From Chthoniobacterales bacterium (GTDB lineage: Bacteria; Verrucomicrobiota; Verrucomicrobiia; Chthoniobacterales; UBA10450): a DNA stretch of 46,275 bases. The translations under genes were made by a program, and so were the position numbers. Shown piece after piece: positions 1,854 through 28,315 of this stretch. Below the pieces are notes generated by a model. It had not been told where the DNA came from, did not search any database, and saw nothing but the letters and a program-made list of their open reading frames with translations. Numbering within the stretch: the stretch's first letter is position 1; every line of letters starts with the position of its first letter. The stretch is taken from contig JAICMR010000005.1 in NCBI GenBank assembly GCA_025929155.1, forward strand, positions 1 through 46,275. Reading direction: 5' to 3'.

Positions 1854-2861
1854 TCAGCTTTCCCGCGTTGCGCACCACGCGCCGAACAACGCCACGGCCG
1901 CCGCCACGAGGCCGCCGGCGATGCAGTTTCGATGCATGTCAGTCCAGAGCTGCGGACTGCGCGCATGCGCGCGCGCATCGAAACGGCCGTGTGCCCCGGG
2001 ATCGCCGCCCACGGCCTCGTAAAGATTATCCGGCTTCGAGTGATCCGCCTTCTCGTCCGTCTGCTGGCTTTTCACACCGGTCTTGCCGAGGTAAAGATCG
2101 CCCAGCCGCGGGAAAAGTTTGTTTCCGATAATCGCGATCACCGTCGGCAGGCCGACGTAAATTTCGCGCCTCTGGTTTTTCGACGCGAAGACGATCGCGC
2201 GCGCGGCGACTTCCGGTTGGAAAATCGGCGGCACCGGCTGCGACTTGTTAGGCAACTTATTTTTGCACCAGTCGAACTGCGGCGTGTTCAGCGCTGGCAT
2301 TTGCACCATCACGGGCACGATCCGGCTTTTTTGGTGGATTAGTTCGGCGCGCAAAGAATCCATGAAACCTTGAATGGCGTGTTTGCTCGCGCAATACGCG
2401 GCCTGGAGGGGAATTCCACGATAAGCGAGCGCGCTCCCGACCTGAATAATGTGGCCGCGATCACGCGGGAGCATGCGCTTGAGCGCAGCGAGTGTGCCGT
2501 TGACGTAGCCGAGATAGCAAACTTCTGTCACGCGTTTGAACTCGGCCGGCGTGGTGTCTTTGATGAAGGCGAAGACACTCGTCATCGCAACGTTTACCCA
2601 GACGTCGATCGGACCCAGCTCGCGCTCGACGCGCTCCGCCGCCGCTTCCACGGCTTCGGCGTCGGCCACGTCGCATTGCAGGATGACGGCTTGGCCGCCC
2701 CGCTCTTCCACGTCGCGTTTCGCGCCCTCAAGCGCCTCGGGCCCCCGGGCGAGAAGGCCGATGCGCGCGCCTTCCGTTTCGGCAAACATGCGCGCGGTCG
2801 CGCGCCCAACCCCAGCGGCGGCGCCGGTGATGACAATGACTCTTGGTTTTTTCGTGTTCAT
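1854..2861 (-). CDS. SDR-family oxidoreductase with C-terminal membrane helix
   Basis: A 335-residue short-chain dehydrogenase. The nucleotide-binding TGAAAGVG motif is at residues 12-19, and the catalytic set is Ser143, Tyr156 and Lys160 (YCASK). The usual NNAG is replaced by NVAMTS around Asn90. About 85 residues follow the core fold, ending in a hydrophobic helix near 313-331, so the protein is probably tail-anchored in the membrane. It is the last gene of the minus-strand set with the GMC flavoprotein, 39 bases after that gene, which suggests a role in the same sugar or alcohol oxidation route. The substrate cannot be read from sequence. Confidence 0.88.
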   Translation of the reverse strand: MNTKKPRVIVITGAAAGVGRATARMFAETEGARIGLLARGPEALEGAKRDVEERGGQAVILQCDVADAEAVEAAAERVERELGPIDVWVNVAMTSVFAFIKDTTPAEFKRVTEVCYLGYVNGTLAALKRMLPRDRGHIIQVGSALAYRGIPLQAAYCASKHAIQGFMDSLRAELIHQKSRIVPVMVQMPALNTPQFDWCKNKLPNKSQPVPPIFQPEVAARAIVFASKNQRREIYVGLPTVIAIIGNKLFPRLGDLYLGKTGVKSQQTDEKADHSKPDNLYEAVGGDPGAHGRFDARAHARSPQLWTDMHRNCIAGGLVAAAVALFGAWCATRES

Positions 2862-2900: not shown

Positions 2901-4637
2901 TTAGGCAAGCCGCGGCACTCCTTTCCAGTGCGTCCCCGGCGGCGAAAGCTCGCGTCGCACCGGCGGATCCGTCAGGTCGCGTTTCTCGGAATTGAACACG
3001 CTGGTTCCCTGCGAGATCAGGTAATCGGCGGTTCGCGCCGCGAGCGCTTGAATCGTTAGGCCAGGGTTCGCCGAGCCTTGGGTCGGCAGGACGCTGCCGT
3101 CGCAGACGAAGAGGTTGGCGATCTCGTGGGTGCGGCAAAATTTGTCCACAACGCTAGTTGCCGGATCAGCGCCCATCCGCGCCGCGCCGACGAGGTGGGC
3201 GTAGCGCGCTTCCTGAGCGACTTCCGTGGCGCCAGCGGCGCGCATCACTTCCTCCGTTTTCTTCTTTCCGAACTCGATCAACTTCTTGTCGTTCTCGTGC
3301 AGGCTAAAGCGGATATGCGGAATCCGAATTCCGAATTGGTCACGTTCGTCCGCGAGGGTGACGCGATTATCGGGCCAGGGGAGAATTTCGCCGAGCACGC
3401 CTAACGCCGCCCAATGGTTGTAATCCATCATCACTCGCCGCATTCCCCAGCCCCACGCGCCCTGCGCGACCATCATCTGTTTGGCAAAGGCGATCGGAAG
3501 CGGCCCGACGGTTTGGATGGCGAAGCCGCGGGCGAAATCGCGCTTCGGATCGGTCTCGTAAAATTCCTCGGTGAGCGCGTGCGCCGGCGGCGCTTTGTAT
3601 TGCCTAACGAGTTCGTCGAAGCGGCCGAGAACGACGTTGCCGGCCTGCGCCATCAGATAACGACCAACCGTGCCGCTCCCATTCGCGAGCCCATTTTCGT
3701 GTCGATCGCAGGCGGAATTGAGGAGCAATCGCGGTGTCTCGATTGCGTAGCCGCTGATGATGACGGCTTTCGCTTTCTGGAAATGCTCTTTGCCTTCGCG
3801 ATCGAAATAACTGACGCCGGTGACGCGATTGTTTCTGCCGAGCTGGACCCGGCTCGCCATCGAGCGATCGCGGACTTCCGCTCCGTTCCGGATCGCATCC
3901 GGCACGTGAGTGACGAGCGTGCTCGCTTTCGCGCCGACCTTGCAGCCTTGGATGCAAAACCCACGATAAATGCAATGCGGCCGATCGTTCCGCGAGCCGC
4001 TCAAAATCGCCACCGGTCCGCCGATGCTGACGTCGATGCCTAACGACGTGCAACCTTTGATCAGCACATTTCCCGTGCCGCCCATCGGATGTGGTCCGTA
4101 GGCGTAGCCGTGCGGATCACCCCAGGGATACCAAGCCGGCCCCGCCACGGGCATCTCGAGCTCGAGCAATTCGTAATACGGTTTCAGGTCCCCGTAAGAG
4201 ATCGGCCAGTCGGCGCCAACGCCGTCACGCGTAAAAACCTCAAAATCGCTCGGGTGAAAGCGCGGCGTAAAAGCGGCCCAATGGACGGAGCCGCCGCCGA
4301 CGCCTTTGCCGCTGTTGTTCGCGCCGAAAACGAGCGGATTTTCGCCGCCGGTGATCCGCATGTCTTCCCAGTAAAGCTGGTGTGAGCCCTTCTCGTCGCT
4401 CACCCAATCGCGCTCCGTGTCCCAGAACGGACCCGCCTCCAGACCGACAACGCGGAAGCCGGCGCGCGCGAGCCGTTGCAACAAAACCCCGCCGGCGGAG
4501 CCGACGCCGACAACCAGATAATCGACTTCGTCGTTAGGCGCAAAACGCCGCATGGCCGATCCGACCCGCTGCATTGGGCCCAGATGCCGCTGATGGTCGT
4601 GTGGCGGTTCGAAAGCACCGCCGATTGGTTCTTTCAA
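2901..4637 (-). CDS. GMC-family oxidoreductase, gluconate 2-dehydrogenase large-subunit type
   Basis: A 578-residue FAD-dependent dehydrogenase. The FAD-binding GVGSAGG is at residues 44-50, the GGGSVHW segment follows, and the C-terminal part carries HLVGAARMG, the DGSVLPTQGSANP segment and LTIQALAARTADYL, as in the gluconate/sorbitol dehydrogenase branch. The chosen start is TTG at 4637: AAGGAGG lies six bases upstream, and the start overlaps the stop of the subunit 3 gene as TTGA. This indicates translational coupling. In known three-subunit enzymes the partner subunit 3 is exported with the flavoprotein by Tat and electrons go to a cytochrome c. No cytochrome c is visible here, so the electron acceptor is open. 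Confidence 0.87.
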   Translation of the reverse strand: MKEPIGGAFEPPHDHQRHLGPMQRVGSAMRRFAPNDEVDYLVVGVGSAGGVLLQRLARAGFRVVGLEAGPFWDTERDWVSDEKGSHQLYWEDMRITGGENPLVFGANNSGKGVGGGSVHWAAFTPRFHPSDFEVFTRDGVGADWPISYGDLKPYYELLELEMPVAGPAWYPWGDPHGYAYGPHPMGGTGNVLIKGCTSLGIDVSIGGPVAILSGSRNDRPHCIYRGFCIQGCKVGAKASTLVTHVPDAIRNGAEVRDRSMASRVQLGRNNRVTGVSYFDREGKEHFQKAKAVIISGYAIETPRLLLNSACDRHENGLANGSGTVGRYLMAQAGNVVLGRFDELVRQYKAPPAHALTEEFYETDPKRDFARGFAIQTVGPLPIAFAKQMMVAQGAWGWGMRRVMMDYNHWAALGVLGEILPWPDNRVTLADERDQFGIRIPHIRFSLHENDKKLIEFGKKKTEEVMRAAGATEVAQEARYAHLVGAARMGADPATSVVDKFCRTHEIANLFVCDGSVLPTQGSANPGLTIQALAARTADYLISQGTSVFNSEKRDLTDPPVRRELSPPGTHWKGVPRLA

Positions 4638-5416
4638 TGCGTTCCTCCTTGTCCGGTCGGCGGATGTTCCTGGTGGGCCGCGATCTCTTTCTCCTTCGGG
4701 TCGGAAACCCAGACTTCCGGTCGCACCGACCACTCATAGCGTTGCTCTTCCACTTCCCACGGCTCGGGCTCGCCGCGTTCGAGCCGGATGTAAGCCCGCG
4801 GATAAGCCGGCCCGCCAAAGCCGACCTCGTCCCAGGCCCAGGGATGCGCGTAATACATTTCCACGCAGTCCTGCACGACTAATCCCCAGTAGCGATGGAT
4901 TGGCATGCGCGCCCAGATTTCTTCCGCGCCGGGGAGCGGCTTCGCGTCGTGGATGGATTTCACCAGGTCTTCCTGTTCGCGCCACGACAGCTCGACAAAA
5001 CCACGATCGAAATTCGCGCGCGCAATCTGTTCGATCGCCTGAATGCCGAGGCGATAGGCGTCGCCATCCGCTGGCATATCTTCGAAACGGTAACCGGGCG
5101 TTCTCCTAAGAAAAAGCCGCTCATCGATGAACTGCAAAATCGGAATCCGATGCGCCAAATCGCGATCGTCCTGCGGCAAGAGGTGATCGCAGAGGATGGC
5201 CATGAACTTCGCCTCCTCGTGGTTGAAGAAACGAATCGCCGGCGTCTCCTCCACTCGTTGCCTAACGACCTCCCGCGTCGCCGCATCCCAGAAAGCCTGC
5301 TGAGAGAGCGTGCTGAAGCCGGGGTAGTAACCAGGGTGTGCGGTCGGCGGGAGCGATTGCAGGGTCGCGAGATCAATCGGGAGGCGTTCGGATTTGGTCT
5401 GGTTCTCAGGCGTCAT
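4634..5416 (-). CDS. Gluconate 2-dehydrogenase subunit 3-family protein
   Basis: About 260 residues from ATG at 5416. The FFNHEEAKFMAILCDHLLP segment is the hallmark region of the small (gamma) subunit of gluconate-type GMC dehydrogenases. The frame stays open upstream to 5506, but that part is a translated hairpin repeat and is unlikely to be protein. No Tat signal with twin Arg is evident at the chosen start, which is unusual for subunits that carry the complex across the membrane. Its stop overlaps the TTG start of the large subunit. The C-terminal 60 residues are charged and carry an RYEWSVRPEVW segment of unknown role. Confidence 0.8.
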   Translation of the reverse strand: MTPENQTKSERLPIDLATLQSLPPTAHPGYYPGFSTLSQQAFWDAATREVVRQRVEETPAIRFFNHEEAKFMAILCDHLLPQDDRDLAHRIPILQFIDERLFLRRTPGYRFEDMPADGDAYRLGIQAIEQIARANFDRGFVELSWREQEDLVKSIHDAKPLPGAEEIWARMPIHRYWGLVVQDCVEMYYAHPWAWDEVGFGGPAYPRAYIRLERGEPEPWEVEEQRYEWSVRPEVWVSDPKEKEIAAHQEHPPTGQGGTH

Positions 5417-5624: not shown

Positions 5625-6635
5625 TCACGGTTCCCTCCTCATCAGACTGGCCAGCAATCCCACCGTCCCGCAGGCCGCGAAGAGGAGCGGCGCGAAAATC
5701 GGCGGCCCGTACATGATGTTATAGAGCGGCTTCTTTAAGCCGCCCGGCCGCCTCACGACTCCACGCGCGTGGTAAAAGAATCCGACGCCGCCATCGGCGA
5801 TTGCGAGCACCGACATCGCCGGGAGCCAGGTGCGCGCGATCTTTGGATTCACGATCGCGCCCGCGGCCGCGCCCATCAGGAGCGGCGTGATAATGATGGG
5901 CGTCCACTGCGCCAGGTAGCGGAAGTTATTCTTGTAATGCGAATAGAGCGCCTCCGCGCCGCTGCAAAAGGTCCCGACAATCGTCGCGACCGCGAGATGC
6001 TTTTGGAACCGGCCTTCGCGCAAACCGATTGCCCACGGATGTTGCTGCGCGAGATCTTCCGAGGTGAAGGAGAGCAAGCGCGCGGCGGGCGGGCGCAGGA
6101 TAAGCGGTGCAGCTTCCTCCGGGCGCAGGAAAGAGGCGATCAGGCCGAGATACGCGCTGATCCCAAAAAGGATCGGTGCGAAGATCGGCGGCCCCATGAT
6201 GAGGTTCGCGACCGGGAGCCGCCAGCCGCCCGGTTTCCGCGCAATCCCGCGAACGTGAAAGATGAAACCAACCAGCCCATCGAGCAGCGTGAGCGCAGAG
6301 GTCCAGCGCAGGACGGTGCGGGCCGCGCGCTTGCTCAACGCGCCCCAAATCCCCGCGACCGACATCGCCCCTCCGAGCGCGACCGGCGTATACATGATCT
6401 GTTGTCCGTAGCTGCCGCGATAGTGCTCGTAAGCGACCTCGGCGCCAGCAAGCACGCTCGAGAGGCCGGCAAGAAACGAAAGGCTGCGCTGAAACCGGCC
6501 TTCGCGAATGTGGGCTTCGGCATTGCGCGCTTCGCGCTCCAGTTTTTCGGGAAGAAATTTGTCGAACAAATCGTCCGGCCAATTGCCGTTCTTCCGGTGG
6601 GCAATTTTCCGAATGCTTTTCGTTAGGGCATTCAT
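5625..6635 (-). CDS. Internally duplicated multi-pass membrane protein
   Basis: A 336-residue hydrophobic protein made of two copies of one module, at roughly residues 44-173 and 207-333. Each copy begins with REGRFQ and carries a His before a Tyr (H71, H233), a second His in FHVRG or YHARG (H127, H289), an RKPGG or RRPGG turn, and GPPIFAP (148-154, 310-316) before a final helix. The equal His positions could be cofactor or metal ligands; this is inference. The start is supported by GGAGG nine bases upstream, inside the end of the ZIP gene. It sits between the ZIP transporter and the GMC dehydrogenase subunits, so a membrane partner of that dehydrogenase is possible. I do not recognise a named family. 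Confidence 0.82.
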   Translation of the reverse strand: MNALTKSIRKIAHRKNGNWPDDLFDKFLPEKLEREARNAEAHIREGRFQRSLSFLAGLSSVLAGAEVAYEHYRGSYGQQIMYTPVALGGAMSVAGIWGALSKRAARTVLRWTSALTLLDGLVGFIFHVRGIARKPGGWRLPVANLIMGPPIFAPILFGISAYLGLIASFLRPEEAAPLILRPPAARLLSFTSEDLAQQHPWAIGLREGRFQKHLAVATIVGTFCSGAEALYSHYKNNFRYLAQWTPIIITPLLMGAAAGAIVNPKIARTWLPAMSVLAIADGGVGFFYHARGVVRRPGGLKKPLYNIMYGPPIFAPLLFAACGTVGLLASLMRREP

Positions 6636-6640
6636 CTTCG

Positions 6641-7402
6641 TTAGCCTCCGAGTTTCGTGAGCACAAACGCGCAGAGAAAGCCCACTACGGTGATGAACCC
6701 GGCGAATTCGTGCGCCGTTTCAAACGCTTCCGGAATCATCGTGTCTGCGAGCATGGCGAGAATGGCGCCCGCCGCGACGGCGGTGGTGCCGGCGATCACG
6801 TCAGCTGAAAAATTACGGAAGACCGCGTAGCCGAGCAGCGAGGCGATCCCGGAGATGACGGCGATGGCGATCCAGACGCCGAAGATGTAGCTGGCGGAGC
6901 GTCCGGCCTTTTTCATCCCTACGGCGCTCGAGAGGCCTTCGGGAATATTGGAAAGAAAAATTGCGATTACTGCCACGAAGCTGACGGCGCCCCCGGCGAG
7001 CAGGCTTAGTCCGATCACGATCGACTCCGGAATGCCGTCGAGAAGCGCGCCGACCGCGATCGCGAGGCCGCTCCCCGGGTTTTGCTTCTCGTTAGGCTGT
7101 TGCTCGCCGGAGCGCTTGCGATGTTTCGCGCCGCGCTGATCAAGATACCAGTTGGCGGCAGTGTAAATCGCGGCGCCGCCGACGAACCCGATCGCGGTCG
7201 AGTCGAATCCGCCGCGCTTGTAGGCCTCGTCCATGAGATCGAAAGAAAGCGCCGAGATGAGAACGCCGCTGCCGAACGCCATGATCGCCGCGATGTAGCG
7301 CTGCGGGATATGAACGAGATAACCGGCGGCCGCGCCGACGATCAGCGCCGCGCCGGCAAAAAAGCCCCACCAACCTGCGATCAGCCAAAGCGGGAGGTTC
7401 AT
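6641..7402 (-). CDS. ZIP-family divalent metal transporter
   Basis: About 253 residues with eight predicted helices. The two ZIP signature sites are present: DGIPES at residues 122-127 and NIPEG at 152-156, which form the metal path in this family. The loop at 90-110 (AKHRKRSGEQQ) is charged and lies where ZIP proteins have a cytoplasmic His-rich loop, though it holds only one His. The stop codon lies five bases from the next start and the ribosome site of that gene overlaps this one, so the two are co-translated. Zinc or iron are the usual cargoes; the actual ion is not shown. An upstream in-frame ATG at 7468 adds an Arg/Pro-rich stretch that is unlikely to be translated. Confidence 0.85.
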   Translation of the reverse strand: MNLPLWLIAGWWGFFAGAALIVGAAAGYLVHIPQRYIAAIMAFGSGVLISALSFDLMDEAYKRGGFDSTAIGFVGGAAIYTAANWYLDQRGAKHRKRSGEQQPNEKQNPGSGLAIAVGALLDGIPESIVIGLSLLAGGAVSFVAVIAIFLSNIPEGLSSAVGMKKAGRSASYIFGVWIAIAVISGIASLLGYAVFRNFSADVIAGTTAVAAGAILAMLADTMIPEAFETAHEFAGFITVVGFLCAFVLTKLGG

Positions 7403-7481
7403 CGGAGGAAATGGATGATCAGGCCTTCGGCGAGGACGGGCTGGCAGCCGGTCCTCCCCAGATCCCAAAGTCGGAGCGAAA

Positions 7482-8573
7482 TCATACGGCGAACTTCTCC
7501 GCGTCCTTTCTTTTCAAAACCAGACCGTTCCCGGGTCGATCGAGATCGGGGCGTAAAGCGCCATCGTTAGGCTCGGGCGCGCCGTCGAAGAACATCCGCT
7601 CAATCCGCGCGTGATCGTGAAAATATTCAGCGTGGCGGAAGGGTCGTGTGGCGCAACCTACGGGAATGTGCAGCGCCGGCGCGCAATGCGAGGAGAGGGG
7701 AAGATGATGGGCTTCGCACAAAACCGCGGCTTGCAAAAACCCGGTGTAGCCGCCGCAGCGCGTCGCGTCCGCCTGAAGCACATCGACCGCCCCGGCGCTG
7801 AGCATGCGATGAAAATAGGTGACATCGTATCCGTACTCTCCTGCGGCGATGTCCATCCCGGGCGGGCCGTCGTCGCGCAGGAGACGCAGCCCATCGAGAT
7901 CGTCGGAGCTGACGGGTTCCTCGAACCAGCTCACGTCCAATTCCGAGAAGACGTAACTGAGCGCGAGAGCTTGTTTGCGCGAATAGGCGCCATTCGCGTC
8001 CACAAAAAGCTCGGCATCTTCCAAGATGGCTTCGCGCGCGGCCGCGACCCGTTGGGGATCGGCTTGCGGGTCACGGCCGATTTTCATTTTGACCCGCGGA
8101 ATCCCTTGCTCGACCCAGCCGCCAAGTTGTTCCTGCAACTTTTCATTTGTGTAGGAGGTAAAGCCGCCGCTGCCGTAGAGGGGCATGACATCGCGCACCT
8201 GCCCGAATAGCCTAACGAGCGGGGTCCCGAGTAGCTTTGCCTGCAAATCCCAGAGCGAGGTGTCGATCGCCGAAATCGCCATCGAACAAATGCCGGGGCG
8301 GCCGAGATTGCGGATCGATTCCACCATGGCGACGAAGCATTCGTTAGGCGAATGCGCGCTCTGGCCGATCACCACATGTTTGAGTTTCGAGTCGATCAGC
8401 TTGGCGGTCGCAACGTCGGCGTAGCTATAGCCTAATGAACGCCGCCCGCCGGCTTCCGCTTCCACGATCACGATCGTCGTGCTGTTCCATGCAATCGTGC
8501 CGTCCGATTCCGGCTGATCGGTCGGAATGGTGAAAGCCGAAACCTCCAGCTTCTCGATCGGCGTAGCGTTCAT
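7482..8573 (-). CDS. Enolase-superfamily enzyme (mandelate racemase/sugar-acid dehydratase group)
   Basis: A 363-residue enzyme from ATG at 8573. The acid/base pair KxK is at Lys162 and Lys164 (RVKMKIG). Likely metal ligands are Asp192 (VDANG), Glu218 or Glu219 (WFEEP) and Glu246 (AGEYG). Asp269 (QADATRCGG) and His296 (SSHCAP) complete the His/Asp dyad of the mandelate racemase subgroup. Members abstract a proton alpha to a carboxylate and act as racemases, cycloisomerases or sugar-acid dehydratases. The gluconate-type dehydrogenase downstream makes a sugar-acid substrate plausible. The frame remains open upstream to 8720, but that part is a translated hairpin repeat. Confidence 0.88.
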   Translation of the reverse strand: MNATPIEKLEVSAFTIPTDQPESDGTIAWNSTTIVIVEAEAGGRRSLGYSYADVATAKLIDSKLKHVVIGQSAHSPNECFVAMVESIRNLGRPGICSMAISAIDTSLWDLQAKLLGTPLVRLFGQVRDVMPLYGSGGFTSYTNEKLQEQLGGWVEQGIPRVKMKIGRDPQADPQRVAAAREAILEDAELFVDANGAYSRKQALALSYVFSELDVSWFEEPVSSDDLDGLRLLRDDGPPGMDIAAGEYGYDVTYFHRMLSAGAVDVLQADATRCGGYTGFLQAAVLCEAHHLPLSSHCAPALHIPVGCATRPFRHAEYFHDHARIERMFFDGAPEPNDGALRPDLDRPGNGLVLKRKDAEKFAV

Positions 8574-8736: not shown

Positions 8737-10527
8737 TCAATCCTTGTGAGGGATGAAACTTTCGATCGCGTCCTTGAAGGCGCCGCGGATCATTCCGCCC
8801 GCGTCAGGGTCGCCTTTAACGATCGATTTCATGAAATTCTCCGCTTCCTCGAAGCTGATGTGCGGCGGCAGGGTCGGCACTTCCGGATCGGTCATGGCTT
8901 CATAGACTACCGGCCGATCAGAGCTGAGGGCGCGGTCCCACGCCGGTCCGACCTCGTCCGGATTATCGACTCGAATCCCGCGCAGGCCGAGCATTTCAGC
9001 ATAACTGGCGAAGGCGAAATCCGGCACAGTCTGCGACACCACATATTTCGGGTCGCCCGTCATGACGCGCTGCTCCCAGGTCACCTGGTTCAAATCATGG
9101 TTGGCCAGGACCATAATGATGAGCCGCGGATCGCTCCACTCCTTCCAGTTATCCGCGATTGTGATCAGGCCGTTGATTCCGTTCATGAGCATCGCGCCGT
9201 CGCCGACGAGCGCGATCACCGGTCGATCGGGCCAGGCGAATTTCGCCGCGATCGCGTAGGGCACGCCGGGTCCCATCGTTGCCAGATTTCCGGAAAGCGA
9301 GGCCATCATTCCGCGCCGGACCTTGAGATCGCGCGCGAACCAGTTCGCCGACGAGCCGGAGTCGGAAGAGAGAATGCAGTTCTCCGGCAAACGTGGCGAG
9401 AGCTCCCAGAAGACGCGTTCGGGGTTGATTGGGTTCGCGCTGTTCATGGCGCGCGCCTCCAGCACTTCCCACCAGTCTTTCAGCCAGCCCTCGATCTTCT
9501 CCCGCCACGAGCGGTCGGCCTTGCGCTCGAGCAACGGCACGAGCGCACGCAAGGTTTCCGTGCTGTCGCCGACAAGGCTCAACTCCATCGGATAACGGAT
9601 GTTGATCATCTTGGCGTCGATGTCGATTTGCACTCCACGGGCCGCCCCTTCCTTCGGGAGAAACTCCGAATACGGAAAGCTGGAGCCGACCATCAGAAGG
9701 GTGTCGCACTCGGTCATCATGTCCCAGCTCGGCTTGCTGCCTAACAAACCGATCGGGCCGGTGCAGTAGGGCAACGCGTCAGGCAAAACGGCTTTGCCTA
9801 ACAATGCCTTGGCTACGCCGGCGCCGAGGAGTTCGGCCACTTCCATCACTTCATCGGTCGCGCCCAGGCAGCCGGCACCGACCAACATTGCCACTTTCTC
9901 CCCGGAGTTGAGGATGTCGGCGGCGCGGCGCAAATCGGCATCGGTGGGAATAACGCGCGGGGTAGAATAGCTCGTGCCGGAATGAATCGTGTTGTGCTTC
10001 CGTGGCGGCGTCTCGACCGCGTCCAGTTCCTGGACATCGTTAGGGAAGATAATGCAGGTGACCGTGCGCTGGGACTTGGCAATGCGAATCGCGCGATCGA
10101 CCAGATGACGCGCCTGCGCGGGCACATTGCAGGTATGGACATACTCGTGCGCGACGTCCTTGAAGAGGGAGTTGAGATCGACTTCCTGCTGAAACGAACC
10201 GCCCATGGCCGCGCGAGCTGATTGCCCGACGATCGCGACGACCGGCTGGTGATCCATCTTGGCGTCGTAGAGTCCGTTGAGCAGATGGATCGCGCCCGGA
10301 CCGGACGTGGCGAGGCAAATACCGACTTCGCCGGTGAATTTGGCATGCGCGCAAGCCATGAACGCCGCCATCTCCTCGTGCCGCACCTGGATGTAATCGA
10401 TCGCATCGCCCGCACGCTGGATTGCGCCGATGATCCCGTTGATGCCGTCACCGGGAAATCCGTAGATGCGGGTGATGCCCCATTCGGTGATGCGTTTGAT
10501 TAAGAAGTCGCTGACTTGTTCTGCCAT
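8737..10527 (-). CDS. Thiamine-diphosphate enzyme, pyruvate oxidase/acetolactate synthase-like
   Basis: A 596-residue enzyme with the three-domain layout of the POX/ALS family. The catalytic Glu lies in RHEEMAAFMA near residue 51. A central FAD/Rossmann-like domain follows, and the TPP/Mg motif begins GDGAMLMNG at residue 442 and runs to the Asn in VLANHDLNQ. The wording GDGAMLMNGINGLITIA is close to that of pyruvate:quinone oxidases, but the PoxB-type amphipathic C-terminal helix is not obvious, so the reaction is not settled. It lies upstream of the enolase-superfamily gene on the same strand, separated by a hairpin repeat, and may work on the 2-keto acid produced there (inference). Confidence 0.88.
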   Translation of the reverse strand: MAEQVSDFLIKRITEWGITRIYGFPGDGINGIIGAIQRAGDAIDYIQVRHEEMAAFMACAHAKFTGEVGICLATSGPGAIHLLNGLYDAKMDHQPVVAIVGQSARAAMGGSFQQEVDLNSLFKDVAHEYVHTCNVPAQARHLVDRAIRIAKSQRTVTCIIFPNDVQELDAVETPPRKHNTIHSGTSYSTPRVIPTDADLRRAADILNSGEKVAMLVGAGCLGATDEVMEVAELLGAGVAKALLGKAVLPDALPYCTGPIGLLGSKPSWDMMTECDTLLMVGSSFPYSEFLPKEGAARGVQIDIDAKMINIRYPMELSLVGDSTETLRALVPLLERKADRSWREKIEGWLKDWWEVLEARAMNSANPINPERVFWELSPRLPENCILSSDSGSSANWFARDLKVRRGMMASLSGNLATMGPGVPYAIAAKFAWPDRPVIALVGDGAMLMNGINGLITIADNWKEWSDPRLIIMVLANHDLNQVTWEQRVMTGDPKYVVSQTVPDFAFASYAEMLGLRGIRVDNPDEVGPAWDRALSSDRPVVYEAMTDPEVPTLPPHISFEEAENFMKSIVKGDPDAGGMIRGAFKDAIESFIPHKD

Positions 10528-10615
10528 AAGTTCTCTGTTTCTACTTCGTTGTTGTTTGCTCGTCAGGCTCCCTTTAACTCCTTCATTCGTTAGGCGAGAG
10601 CGAAGCCAAAGCACA

Positions 10616-10700: not shown

Positions 10701-11075
10701 TTAGTCCGATGAAAAGGCGATGGTGGTAATGAGCGCGTTGGCTTCCTGGCGCGAATCGAGCCGGGTGTGTTGCACGACGATCGGCACGTCAGAAATGATC
10801 GTGCTCGCGTAGTTTGTACCGTGTGGGATCGGTTCCGGATCAGTCAGATCGTTGAAACGCTGATGGAGCGTGCGCTGCGGCGGGACCGTGATTTTGTAAG
10901 GGCCAACCGGATCGCGATCACTATAGAAAATGGTGATCTCAACATGGGCCGCGACATTGTTCGCGTTCAGGATACAGACCGTCTCGTGGCTCAGCATTTC
11001 CGGCTCGGGCCCATTGCTCCAGGCGGGAATCCAGCCTTCCGCGATCGCCCATTTTCTTCGTCCGATTTCGTCCAT
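10701..11075 (-). CDS. Sensory rhodopsin transducer (ASRT) family protein
   Basis: A 124-residue soluble protein. The segments KWAIAEGWIP, GPEPEMLSHETVCILNA, VEITIFYSDRDPVGPY, RFNDLTDPEPIPHGT and VPIVVQHTRLDSRQ match, nearly word for word, the transducer of the Anabaena sensory rhodopsin as I recall it. That protein is a small beta-sandwich that binds the rhodopsin; the wider family has been predicted to bind small molecules. The ATG at 11075 has GGAG at proper distance. No rhodopsin gene is in the window, so a metabolite-sensing role is more likely here, perhaps linked to the neighbouring TPP and enolase-superfamily genes (inference). Confidence 0.88.
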   Translation of the reverse strand: MDEIGRRKWAIAEGWIPAWSNGPEPEMLSHETVCILNANNVAAHVEITIFYSDRDPVGPYKITVPPQRTLHQRFNDLTDPEPIPHGTNYASTIISDVPIVVQHTRLDSRQEANALITTIAFSSD

Positions 11076-11208
11076 TGCTTTCTCCGTTTCCGCGAAAAGG
11101 AAACGGCGCATCGACCCTCATCGGATTCAAAAACTTCCCCGCTCCTCCGGCGGCTCGCTCTGAAACTGACAGGTGGGAAAGTGAATCAGTTCAAAATTCG
11201 GCAGGCTG

Positions 11209-13534: not shown

Positions 13535-14842
13535 TCATCCGATCTGCCCCGACTTCCCAGCGGCAAGTGCCGCCTGCTTTTTGCCTAACCAAAAGCTGAG
13601 CCCGCACCAGATCGCCGCGAGCGGCGCGGCGATGAACGAAATCCCGGTGAGACCGAGCCCCAGCCAGGTGAGAAGCGCGTAGGACCACGCGCCGACCTGA
13701 TCGCCCAACCGGTAAATGAACGTGTCGATGAAACTCTTGGCTTTGTATTTATCCTCCCGTCGCAGAACCGTGAACAGAACCTCACGCGCGGGGCGGGTAA
13801 CGGCGAAATTGCCTGCGCGACGAGCCACTTGAAAGATAGCCAGTAACAGAAGCACCGGCACGAAACCCAGGCCGAGAAAGCCGAGCACGCTCAAGGCCGG
13901 CAAAAACGCGAGAGTCACGCCGACGCCGAACCATTTCAGGAGCCGCCCCGTAATAAAAAGCTGACCGAGAATGGTCAGCGTGTTCACGGCGAGATCGAGT
14001 TGCGCGAAGAAAGCAGTCCGTGCGGCGCGGTCGTGAAATTGATGGCCTGTGAGATCGGCTTGCTGGAAATAGACGACCGTGTTGCAGAACGCGTGCAGGA
14101 GCAGGAACGCGCAAATGCCGAGCAGGTAAGGCGAGCGGGCCACGTGCGCAATCCCGGAAAGGATCCCGCCGCCGCCGATCGGCTTCTCTTTCTCCTGCTC
14201 CTGCTCGCCAGGATTAGCAAGAGCAGGAGCAGGTCGGACTGCAGGGAAAAACTTCACGCACCAAGGCGCGAGCTCGAGAAGGAGCGCAGTCACGAGGATC
14301 AGATTCGGCGCGCCGATTTTTCTGACGAGCGTCGCCGTGAAAAGTGGTCCAGCGATCGCGCCTAACGAGCCGCCAACGCTGATGAACGCGAAGAGCCGTT
14401 TCGCCTGTTCGCTGTCGAAAACATCGGTCATGAACGCCCAGAAAAGCGTCACGACAAAGAGGTTGAACACGCTCACCCAGATAAAAAAGGCGCGGCCGAC
14501 CCAGACGTTTTGCGCCGGCGTCAGCGTGCGCATGAGCACGTAAAAGATGAGCAGGTTTACGATGAAGAACCGGTAGGCGATCGGCAGAAAGCGTCGGCGC
14601 GACATTTGCGCGACGATCGCGGAGAAGGCGGCGTTAGCGACGAGCATGGCGACGAGCGTCCCGCTGAAAAGCCAGGACAAACTCTCGACGCTTCCCGCCG
14701 CCGCGATGTCGTCGCGGATCGGACGGATGACGTAATAGCTCGCGAGGATGACGAAGTTAAACCCGCACGCCAGGAGGAGCGCGCGGACTTCGTTAGGCCG
14801 GACATCAACGGCTTTTTGGAGGAGCCCGTGCGCGGCTTTCAT
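13535..14842 (-). CDS. ADP/ATP translocase-like carrier (MFS-type, Npt1/Npt2 branch)
   Basis: A 435-residue membrane protein with about twelve helices, from ATG at 14842. The opening part has Glu-Val-Arg-Ala then YYVIRPIRDD, which is the recurring start of the NTP/NDP translocase-like family in free-living bacteria. A cytoplasmic loop with EQEQEKEKPIGGGG splits the two halves. Related free-living proteins are annotated only as MFS or Npt1/Npt2 family, and nucleotide exchange has been shown mainly for intracellular bacteria and plastids, so substrate here is open. The frame stays open to 14929 through a translated hairpin repeat, which is not likely to be part of the protein. Confidence 0.75.
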   Translation of the reverse strand: MKAAHGLLQKAVDVRPNEVRALLLACGFNFVILASYYVIRPIRDDIAAAGSVESLSWLFSGTLVAMLVANAAFSAIVAQMSRRRFLPIAYRFFIVNLLIFYVLMRTLTPAQNVWVGRAFFIWVSVFNLFVVTLFWAFMTDVFDSEQAKRLFAFISVGGSLGAIAGPLFTATLVRKIGAPNLILVTALLLELAPWCVKFFPAVRPAPALANPGEQEQEKEKPIGGGGILSGIAHVARSPYLLGICAFLLLHAFCNTVVYFQQADLTGHQFHDRAARTAFFAQLDLAVNTLTILGQLFITGRLLKWFGVGVTLAFLPALSVLGFLGLGFVPVLLLLAIFQVARRAGNFAVTRPAREVLFTVLRREDKYKAKSFIDTFIYRLGDQVGAWSYALLTWLGLGLTGISFIAAPLAAIWCGLSFWLGKKQAALAAGKSGQIG

Positions 14843-14869
14843 CGTCCGACCGGGCTCCTCCTCAAGACT

Positions 14870-15038
14870 CCGGGCAGCGCACGCTTCTCGCGTGCTGGCG
14901 ACGGCGTCCCCGCGGTCGCGGACTTTCATGCAGAGTCATCTTATTGAGAGCAGTTCACGTTCATCGAGAGTGTCGGCCGCAGTCCGTCGCGGCGAAAACC
15001 CCACAGGCTCGGGACGCCAGATCGCGTGCGCTACCCGG
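14870..15038. repeat. Hairpin repeat, family 1 (spans end of epimerase gene)
   Basis: CCGGGCAGCGCACGC at 14870-14884 pairs with GCGTGCGCTACCCGG at 15024-15038 (14 of 15). Inner parts (CGGTCGCGGAC and GTCCGTCGCGGC) also pair loosely. The right arm overlaps the last codons and supplies the TAG stop of the epimerase gene, as GGGTAG. Confidence 0.7.
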
Positions 15039-27173: not shown

Positions 27174-27848
27174 ATGTCGATCATCAACTACGCCAGCCGC
27201 GAGATTCAGTTCAAGATCGTTTACTACGGTCCCGCGCTCTGTGGGAAAACGACCAACCTCGCTTACATCCATGAGCGCATCAGCCCGGCGAATCGAGGCG
27301 ACCTCGTCTCGCTCGCAACGGCTGCCGACCGGACTTTGTTCTTCGATTTCCTGCCGTTGAACGCGGTCGTGATTAAAGGCTTTGTCACCAAATTTCAGCT
27401 CTACACCGTGCCGGGGCAGGTGATCTACAACGCGACGCGCCAGCTCGTGTTGCGCAGCGTGGATGGGATCATTTTTGTAGCCGATTCCCAATGGGAAAAG
27501 ATGGAGGAAAACGTAGAGAGCTTTCACAACCTCGAAGAGAATCTGGCGCAGCAAAATCTGTCGATCGACGACATTCCCTACGTCGTGCAATACAATAAGC
27601 GCGACCTCGAAAATATCGCTCCAGTCAACTACCTCGAGTTCCTCCTGAACAACCGCAAGAAGCGGGTGCAGAGCTTCGAAGTCGTTTCGAGCACTGGCCA
27701 GAACGTCTTTGCTTCGCTCAACGCCGTCTCGCAGATGCTGCTCCACAAATTCAGCAAACAAGGCGAAGCCGCACCGAGCGACACCCCGCCTCCGGTCGCG
27801 CGCCCGGTCGAACCCAACGGTGCTGCGCATTCCGCCAATTCCTTATGA
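27174..27848 (+). CDS. mglA: MglA-like polarity GTPase
   Basis: A 224-residue Ras-like GTPase. The P-loop GPALCGKTT starts at residue 19. Arg53-Thr54 (ADRT), Gly81-Gln82 (TVPGQ) and NKRD at 141-144 fall where bacterial MglA has its intrinsic Arg finger, catalytic Gln and base-recognition motif. The C-terminal 30 residues are Pro/Ala-rich and absent from short MglA forms. MglA-GTP marks a cell pole and directs type IV pili; the neighbouring pilB and pilC fit this. The stop overlaps the start of mglB by four bases (ATGA). A TCGTTAGGC copy (27159-27167, minus orientation) sits where a ribosome site would be. Confidence 0.93.
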   Translation: MSIINYASREIQFKIVYYGPALCGKTTNLAYIHERISPANRGDLVSLATAADRTLFFDFLPLNAVVIKGFVTKFQLYTVPGQVIYNATRQLVLRSVDGIIFVADSQWEKMEENVESFHNLEENLAQQNLSIDDIPYVVQYNKRDLENIAPVNYLEFLLNNRKKRVQSFEVVSSTGQNVFASLNAVSQMLLHKFSKQGEAAPSDTPPPVARPVEPNGAAHSANSL

Positions 27849-28315
27849 ACACGATTCCAGCCCTAACGATCGAAAACGTTGCCAGCCTCGACGGGCTCCT
27901 GGAGGATTTTCTGAAGAAGGCTGACGCTGATCTTACGGTCGTAATCGACCGCGGCGGGAATGTGATTTCGCAATTTGGCGATGATTCGATCCTGGATGTG
28001 ACGATCATCGCCGCGCTCGCGGCGGGATCCTTTGCGGCCACCCGCGAGCTCGCGCGCCGGATCGGCGAAGTCGAGTTCAATGCTCTTTATCATCAGGGCA
28101 ACGGAAGCCACATCTTCATGAATTCGGTCGATGACGACACGATTATGATCACCGTTTTCGGCGCCCGCACGACGGTGGGGCTGGTCCGTTTTTATTCCGG
28201 CTCGACCGCGCACGCGGTCGCGGCTCTCCTGAAATCGATTCAGGAAAGTGGCGCGGAAGGATTTACTTTCGATCCGGCTGACGTCGTCTCACCCGCGGCA
28301 TTCGTGGATCGTTAG
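27845..28315 (+). CDS. mglB: MglB-like roadblock/LC7 protein
   Basis: A 156-residue roadblock domain protein (LDGLLEDFLKKADADLTVVID and RGGNVISQFGDD, then NALYHQGNGSHIFMNSV and TTVGLVRFYS). In known systems MglB is the GTPase-activating partner of MglA and keeps it at one pole. The four-base overlap with mglA implies coupled translation and equal amounts. The C-terminal 20 residues extend past the domain, as in Thermus and Myxococcus MglB, where this tail tunes nucleotide exchange. The TAG stop is formed by a copy of TCGTTAGGC (28309-28317). Confidence 0.85.
   Translation: MNTIPALTIENVASLDGLLEDFLKKADADLTVVIDRGGNVISQFGDDSILDVTIIAALAAGSFAATRELARRIGEVEFNALYHQGNGSHIFMNSVDDDTIMITVFGARTTVGLVRFYSGSTAHAVAALLKSIQESGAEGFTFDPADVVSPAAFVDR

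Follow-up and report, generated by a model that had tools for sequence, protein, structure and literature searches.

The window studied here (the whole stretch of DNA analysed, 46,275 nucleotides from a Chthoniobacterales bacterium) contains a gene for a duplicated membrane protein, hereafter MEM, beside genes for a Gluconate_2-dh3 small subunit (GDH3) and a GMC flavoprotein. On balance, we lean towards reading MEM as the membrane electron-accepting subunit of a probably cytoplasm-facing [3Fe-4S] GMC dehydrogenase, in which each of its units would hold a haem b and electrons would be passed to quinone. The partnership of MEM with the GDH3-GMC dehydrogenase is well supported, and a role in carrying electrons is probable. 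The novelty lies in an undescribed duplicated membrane subunit with four invariant His, which would replace cytochrome c in a known type of [3Fe-4S] GMC dehydrogenase.

Duplicated architecture of the membrane protein

MEM (5625..6635, minus strand) comprises 336 amino acids from an ATG start, and the translated open reading frame together with AlphaFold2 predicts eight transmembrane (TM) helices arranged as two four-helix units. When the protein was cut at residue 178 and the halves were aligned to each other, residues 43-173 (unit 1; 6117..6509, minus strand) matched residues 205-335 (unit 2; 5631..6023, minus strand) over 131 ungapped residues, with 39% identity, 60% positives, 103 bits and an E-value of 2e-33. 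The two halves reached a Smith-Waterman score of 269, whereas 2000 shuffles averaged 31.5 (SD 5.6) and never exceeded 66; the first half scored 41 with the reversed second half. The motifs that a preliminary description had listed at constant spacing all recurred with an offset of 162 residues: REGRFQ (45-50 and 207-212), the two His (71 and 233; 127 and 289), KPGG/RPGG (134-137 and 296-299) and GPPIFAP (148-154 and 310-316). MEM consists of two tandem copies of a four-helix membrane unit, and the two-fold repeat reported in that description lies far beyond chance.

AlphaFold2 modelled the whole protein with a pLDDT of 88.1 and a pTM of 0.84. Unit 2 modelled alone (pLDDT 94.2, pTM 0.87) formed an up-down-up-down four-helix bundle. 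The transmembrane nature of the helix bundles is predicted by AlphaFold2 and hydropathy together. According to the modelled helix limits, the paired His of each unit terminate TM1 and TM3, two parallel helices. These residues are His71 (codon 6423..6425) and His127 (6255..6257) in unit 1, and His233 (5937..5939) and His289 (5769..5771) in unit 2, all encoded on the minus strand. Since TM1 and TM3 point the same way across the membrane, a unit's two His should lie at a similar depth, at one face, with the two helices as probable diagonal neighbours. The charge bias between the two membrane faces was small in the positive-inside analysis, and the His of TM1 points 71 degrees away from the conserved face of that helix.

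Family distribution and conserved residues

Searches with MEM against Pfam, NCBIfam, PHROGs and PDB sequences gave no identifying match, and Pfam run over 65 family members returned scattered weak matches, none of them consistent; no similarity to a transporter family and no consistent match to a cytochrome b family emerged. Foldseek found nothing significant in the PDB for the whole model or the single unit, so no known cytochrome fold backs a haem in MEM. VIA-align placed the whole protein among generic four-helix bundles (top match, the tandem four-helix metalloprotein 3d19; Z 12.8, 232 residues, 4.2 A) and one unit among copper-storage or invertase-inhibitor bundles (Z about 11); Z values below about 13 are common among helical bundles by the tool's own warning, and these matches were set aside as a common helical arrangement rather than an identity.

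Relatives of MEM number in the hundreds and come from at least eight phyla; a species-genome scan with a 13-sequence alignment yielded 285, of which 80 were retained. MEM accompanies the dehydrogenase pair in Verrucomicrobiota, Acidobacteriota, Chloroflexota, Pseudomonadota, Deinococcota, Actinomycetota, Myxococcota and Eremiobacterota, and plasmid-borne copies were found in Acidobacteriota, Deinococcus, Frondihabitans and many Proteobacteria. Among full-length homologues, His 71, 127, 233 and 289 are invariant (84/84), whereas the remaining His vary. Pooling of 88 half-units left seven invariant positions, namely a His, a Pro, Gly-x3-His and Pro-x2-Ala-Pro. The two His per unit are thereby the only invariant polar residues (88/88), kept despite divergence to about 25% identity over most of the length, and the Gly four residues ahead of the second His is equally constant (88/88). 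TM4 opens with a conserved GPPxxAP motif, in which P-x2-AP is invariant, while REGRFQ lies outside the invariant core. Additionally, an acidic residue (E/D) stands five residues ahead of the TM1 His in 88 of 88 half-units.

A distant homologue was identified in Chloroflexota genome G434 (L176:5351-6283). This 310-residue double-unit protein shares about 23% identity with MEM (profile E-value 2.6e-23) and keeps all four His. Its gene directly follows, on the same strand, those of a multihaem cytochrome c (PF13447) and a cytochrome b/Fer4/FlpD fusion, and no GDH3 or GMC gene was found near it. This single case points to a redox role of the MEM fold. The row of three genes (L176:1684-6283) is a possible undescribed redox complex in its own right.

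The conserved acid near the TM1 His would also fit a metal site, which counts against the haem reading. Each unit could then form a non-haem metal site from its two His and the acid, used for carrying or gating electrons or for metal loading; the best structural match of the whole protein, 3d19, is a metalloprotein, and a ZIP-like protein is encoded next door. We regard this as quite unlikely, given that Z values in this range are common for helical bundles, that the i to i+5 spacing puts the acid and the His on different helix faces, and that the L176 homologue has lost the acid from unit 2 and retained the His.

Operon and genomic linkage

In the window, MEM belongs to an operon on one strand (minus) with the order ASRT, TPP enzyme, enolase-type dehydratase, ZIP-like protein, MEM, GDH3, GMC and SDR. 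The ASRT-family protein (10701..11111; PF07100, E-value 5e-53), a putative sugar sensor by its neighbourhood in PMC2739507, is a recurrent member, as is the PRK07109-like SDR oxidoreductase (1854..2861; Pfam/NCBIfam). The TPP-dependent enzyme (8737..10614; NF006129, PRK08273) was assigned by Pfam/NCBIfam and neighbourhood. The enolase-superfamily (MR/MLE) enzyme (7482..8570; PF13378/PF02746) resembles sugar-acid dehydratases, with TalGalacDh as its best NCBIfam match, below cut-off, and is a conserved neighbour. Between it and MEM lies the ZIP-like membrane protein (6641..7405; PF02535 below cut-off, weak ZupT similarity), which was also observed in an alphaproteobacterial operon (L208). Across the MEM loci, the TPP, enolase, SDR, GH15 and ASRT genes are variable, whereas MEM-GDH3-GMC is constant.

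The only paper found on this gene set is that of De Souza, Iyer and Aravind (2009; PMC2739507), who described an ASRT-linked sugar operon and read ASRT as a sugar sensor. Both operons share the theme of ASRT, a pyruvate decarboxylase/oxidase-like TPP enzyme and a sugar-acid dehydratase/racemase; unlike the window operon, the published one is presented in the main text with neither MEM nor a gluconate dehydrogenase named. The operon content fits sugar oxidation followed by sugar-acid dehydration, in line with the sugar-sensor reading. Elsewhere in the window, we observed an MFS protein matching the TLC ATP/ADP transporter family (13535-14929, minus strand; PF03219, above cut-off) and, downstream of an MshEN-domain protein, an MglA-like small GTPase recognized by eye (27174-28315, plus strand) directly before a Roadblock/LC7 protein.

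A survey of co-occurrence with the small-subunit genes, which the preliminary description had suggested, found GDH3 adjoining MEM in 89 of the 89 loci with room for it, and GMC was present in 81 of 81. The linkage also holds from the side of the flavoprotein. In the window's order, the 11 genomes with MEM (of 197) are the same 11 that carry a GMC protein of at least 78% identity, the next GMC being at 43%. In Chloroflexota, a GMC protein of at least 53% identity occurs in 18 of 201 genomes, and MEM in the same 18 (next GMC, 41%); one further genome has only the distant L176 homologue. In both samples, the close GMC clade thus always occurs with MEM (29/29), with that one extra distant homologue. 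Furthermore, GDH3 and GMC form one polypeptide in Deinococcus D7000, which fits a tight complex. In its genomic distribution, MEM is obligately tied to one GMC clade.

Such strict linkage fits a non-redox membrane anchor or assembly scaffold equally with an electron acceptor. The conserved His would then be structural or in contact with GDH3, and the invariant Pro and Gly and the charged loops are consistent with strong structural constraint. An anchor would leave unexplained the two membrane His per unit, kept in 88 of 88 half-units across deep divergence, as well as their retention in the L176 homologue, within a cytochrome operon that has no GMC or GDH3. We therefore consider it unlikely.

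Features of the dehydrogenase

GDH3 (4634..5416, minus strand; PF13618, E-value 3e-23) probably starts at MTPENQ, with the longest open reading frame running from 5506, and shows no twin-Arg (Tat) signal. The GMC flavoprotein (2901..4574, minus strand; PF00732/PF05199) probably starts at MQRVGS, with the longest frame from 4733. Its best matches among PDB sequences were the catalytic subunits of fructose dehydrogenase and FAD-glucose dehydrogenase (E-value about 1e-55), and the "gluconate-type" label given to it reflects family membership only.

The GMC protein contains a C-x5-C-x3-C motif (3942..3974, minus strand) that aligned with Cys212, Cys218 and Cys222, the [3Fe-4S] ligands of Burkholderia cepacia glucose dehydrogenase (PMC6719666). 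The motif was present in the GMC of 83 of the 88 MEM loci, and the other five are incomplete or broken frames. With its ligand cysteines kept, the window GMC is predicted to bind a [3Fe-4S] cluster, and the conserved motif implies that an electron acceptor is needed. One candidate is a quinone site at the MEM His, fed directly by the cluster with no haem in MEM. Quinone sites use His and nearby Arg/Lys, and the conserved GPPxxAP with its invariant P-x2-AP at the start of TM4 would suit one. Two His on two helices at matching depth in both units fit axial ligands better, however, and the L176 homologue keeps these His among haem proteins, which makes a direct quinone site very unlikely indeed.

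In B. cepacia glucose dehydrogenase, electrons are taken up by a triple-haem cytochrome c, and the small subunit acts as a Tat hitchhiker (PMC6719666). A Tat signal was found in none of the 87 readable N-termini of MEM-linked GDH3, read from the nearest start codon, with longer readings existing. As a control, ten other GDH3 small subunits from the phylum, without MEM linkage, carry the signal. Because its small subunit lacks a Tat signal, the MEM-linked dehydrogenase probably stays in the cytoplasm, and the complex would face that side. The system thus shares with the DET-type FAD dehydrogenases (glucose, gluconate and fructose) a GMC protein closest in the PDB to fructose and glucose dehydrogenases, the three [3Fe-4S] cysteines and a PF13618 subunit; it differs in having neither the Tat signal nor the triple-haem cytochrome c found there, and instead a polytopic membrane protein with invariant His.

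GMC proteins with the [3Fe-4S] motif and without Tat signal also occur without MEM, in loci L271 and L274. A membrane partner is therefore not needed by every such enzyme, and a cytoplasmic location is not peculiar to the MEM-linked clade. The L271 protein (L271:5221-7452), from the window's genus, is a 743-residue GDH3-GMC fusion with C-x5-C-x3-C and no Tat signal; it lies beside an SDR and a GH1-like gene, with no MEM or cytochrome c nearby, and appears as a soluble relative.

Cytochrome c genes

The preliminary description had stated that no cytochrome gene lies near the GMC gene, and a scan of the whole window found no CXXCH motif in any open reading frame of at least 70 amino acids. A cytochrome c strictly co-occurring with the cluster was also sought in relatives, and none was found: 12 of 93 loci have a CXXCH-containing frame within 3 kb of MEM, and these are of mixed kinds. 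No c-type cytochrome belongs to the MEM-GDH3-GMC operon. This gap is weak evidence on its own, because several control GMC/GDH3 pairs without MEM likewise have no neighbouring cytochrome c. Three control GDH3 loci without MEM do have a cytochrome with nine CXXCH motifs next door. In the verrucomicrobial loci L119, L120 and L121, GDH3 and a GMC protein lacking C-x5-C-x3-C are followed by a nine-CXXCH cytochrome.

Single-unit, two-gene and fused forms

MEM occurs as a single unit of 154-157 amino acids in Frondihabitans, two Deinococcus loci and one Chloroflexota locus, as two adjacent single-unit genes in two Chloroflexota loci, and as the fused double unit in others. GDH3-GMC follows in all three forms, and from this natural series we conclude that the working form is probably a pair of units. 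In the tree of MEM units, one clade (98/99) unites the single units from Deinococcus, Frondihabitans and one Chloroflexota. The deep forks are weak and the proteobacterial units sit on long branches, so the order of duplication is not given by the tree, and we do not claim the single unit as ancestral.

Two further small membrane proteins were observed. In Verrucomicrobiota, a distant single-unit relative of 150 amino acids (L128:6524-6976, plus strand) has E-x4-H in TM1 and a second His in TM3; it is apparently outside a dehydrogenase operon, on a contig that ends soon after. In the Deinococcus operons, a second small membrane protein lies right before the single-unit MEM (L013:8601-8999 and L014:8616-9005), with a conserved C-x2-C (ELCGLCLVA/ELCGWCLVA).

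MEM could also be a transporter of the pathway's substrate or product, a sugar or sugar acid, being a duplicated eight-helix protein whose sugar-oxidation operons encode GH15, TPP and sugar-acid dehydratase-like enzymes. The natural half-length form argues against this, as do the absence of similarity to any Pfam transporter family and the set of invariant residues (His, Gly and Pro, at one membrane face). Moreover, the tightest linkage is to GDH3 and GMC, with the other pathway genes variable. A transport function is thus very unlikely.

Proposed mechanism

We propose that MEM, GDH3 and GMC form a three-part flavin/iron-sulfur dehydrogenase with MEM as its membrane subunit. The dehydrogenase would dock on the cytoplasmic membrane face, and electrons would pass from the substrate to FAD, the [3Fe-4S] cluster, MEM and then the quinone pool, quinone being the acceptor that we infer for MEM. 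In each four-helix unit, the invariant His that terminate TM1 and TM3 would coordinate a single haem b. Such bis-His ligation is, by analogy, the chemistry we consider most likely, since paired His in a membrane helix bundle are a common motif for haem b; four-helix bundles of membrane proteins bind haem b through His ligands (PMC4807273, PMC10120048). MEM would thereby replace the triple-haem cytochrome c subunit of the periplasmic gluconate, glucose and fructose dehydrogenases.

The preliminary description had proposed MEM as a membrane electron acceptor or anchor in place of a cytochrome. The linkage in both directions, the [3Fe-4S] motif, the lack of a co-occurring c-type cytochrome, the invariant His and the L176 homologue give this proposal partial support. 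Its setting has shifted, since a small subunit without Tat signal makes a cytoplasm-facing complex probable, unlike the periplasmic relatives.

MEM resembles the membrane b cytochromes (cytochrome b of bc1, cytochrome b561/CybB) in its four-helix unit, where two helices carry paired His at the same level. It differs from them in having no sequence or significant fold match and in placing the His of each unit at one face only. More broadly, MEM may represent a new diheme family among the membrane b cytochromes, with one haem in each four-helix unit and no sequence relationship to the known ones. It would then act as quinone-reducing module both for the cytoplasm-facing GMC dehydrogenase and for a distinct multihaem redox complex in Chloroflexota. 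This reading is plausible but tentative, and we hold it with some doubt.

A family of membrane proteins that neither Pfam nor NCBIfam covers now has a testable identity. If the haem reading is true, MEM is a haem protein that searches for CXXCH or for known cytochromes b would all overlook, and its occurrence as one unit, two genes or a fusion would offer a direct view of how a duplicated cytochrome evolved. If the proposed function is correct, GMC iron-sulfur dehydrogenases would have a second route into the respiratory chain, at the inner membrane face.
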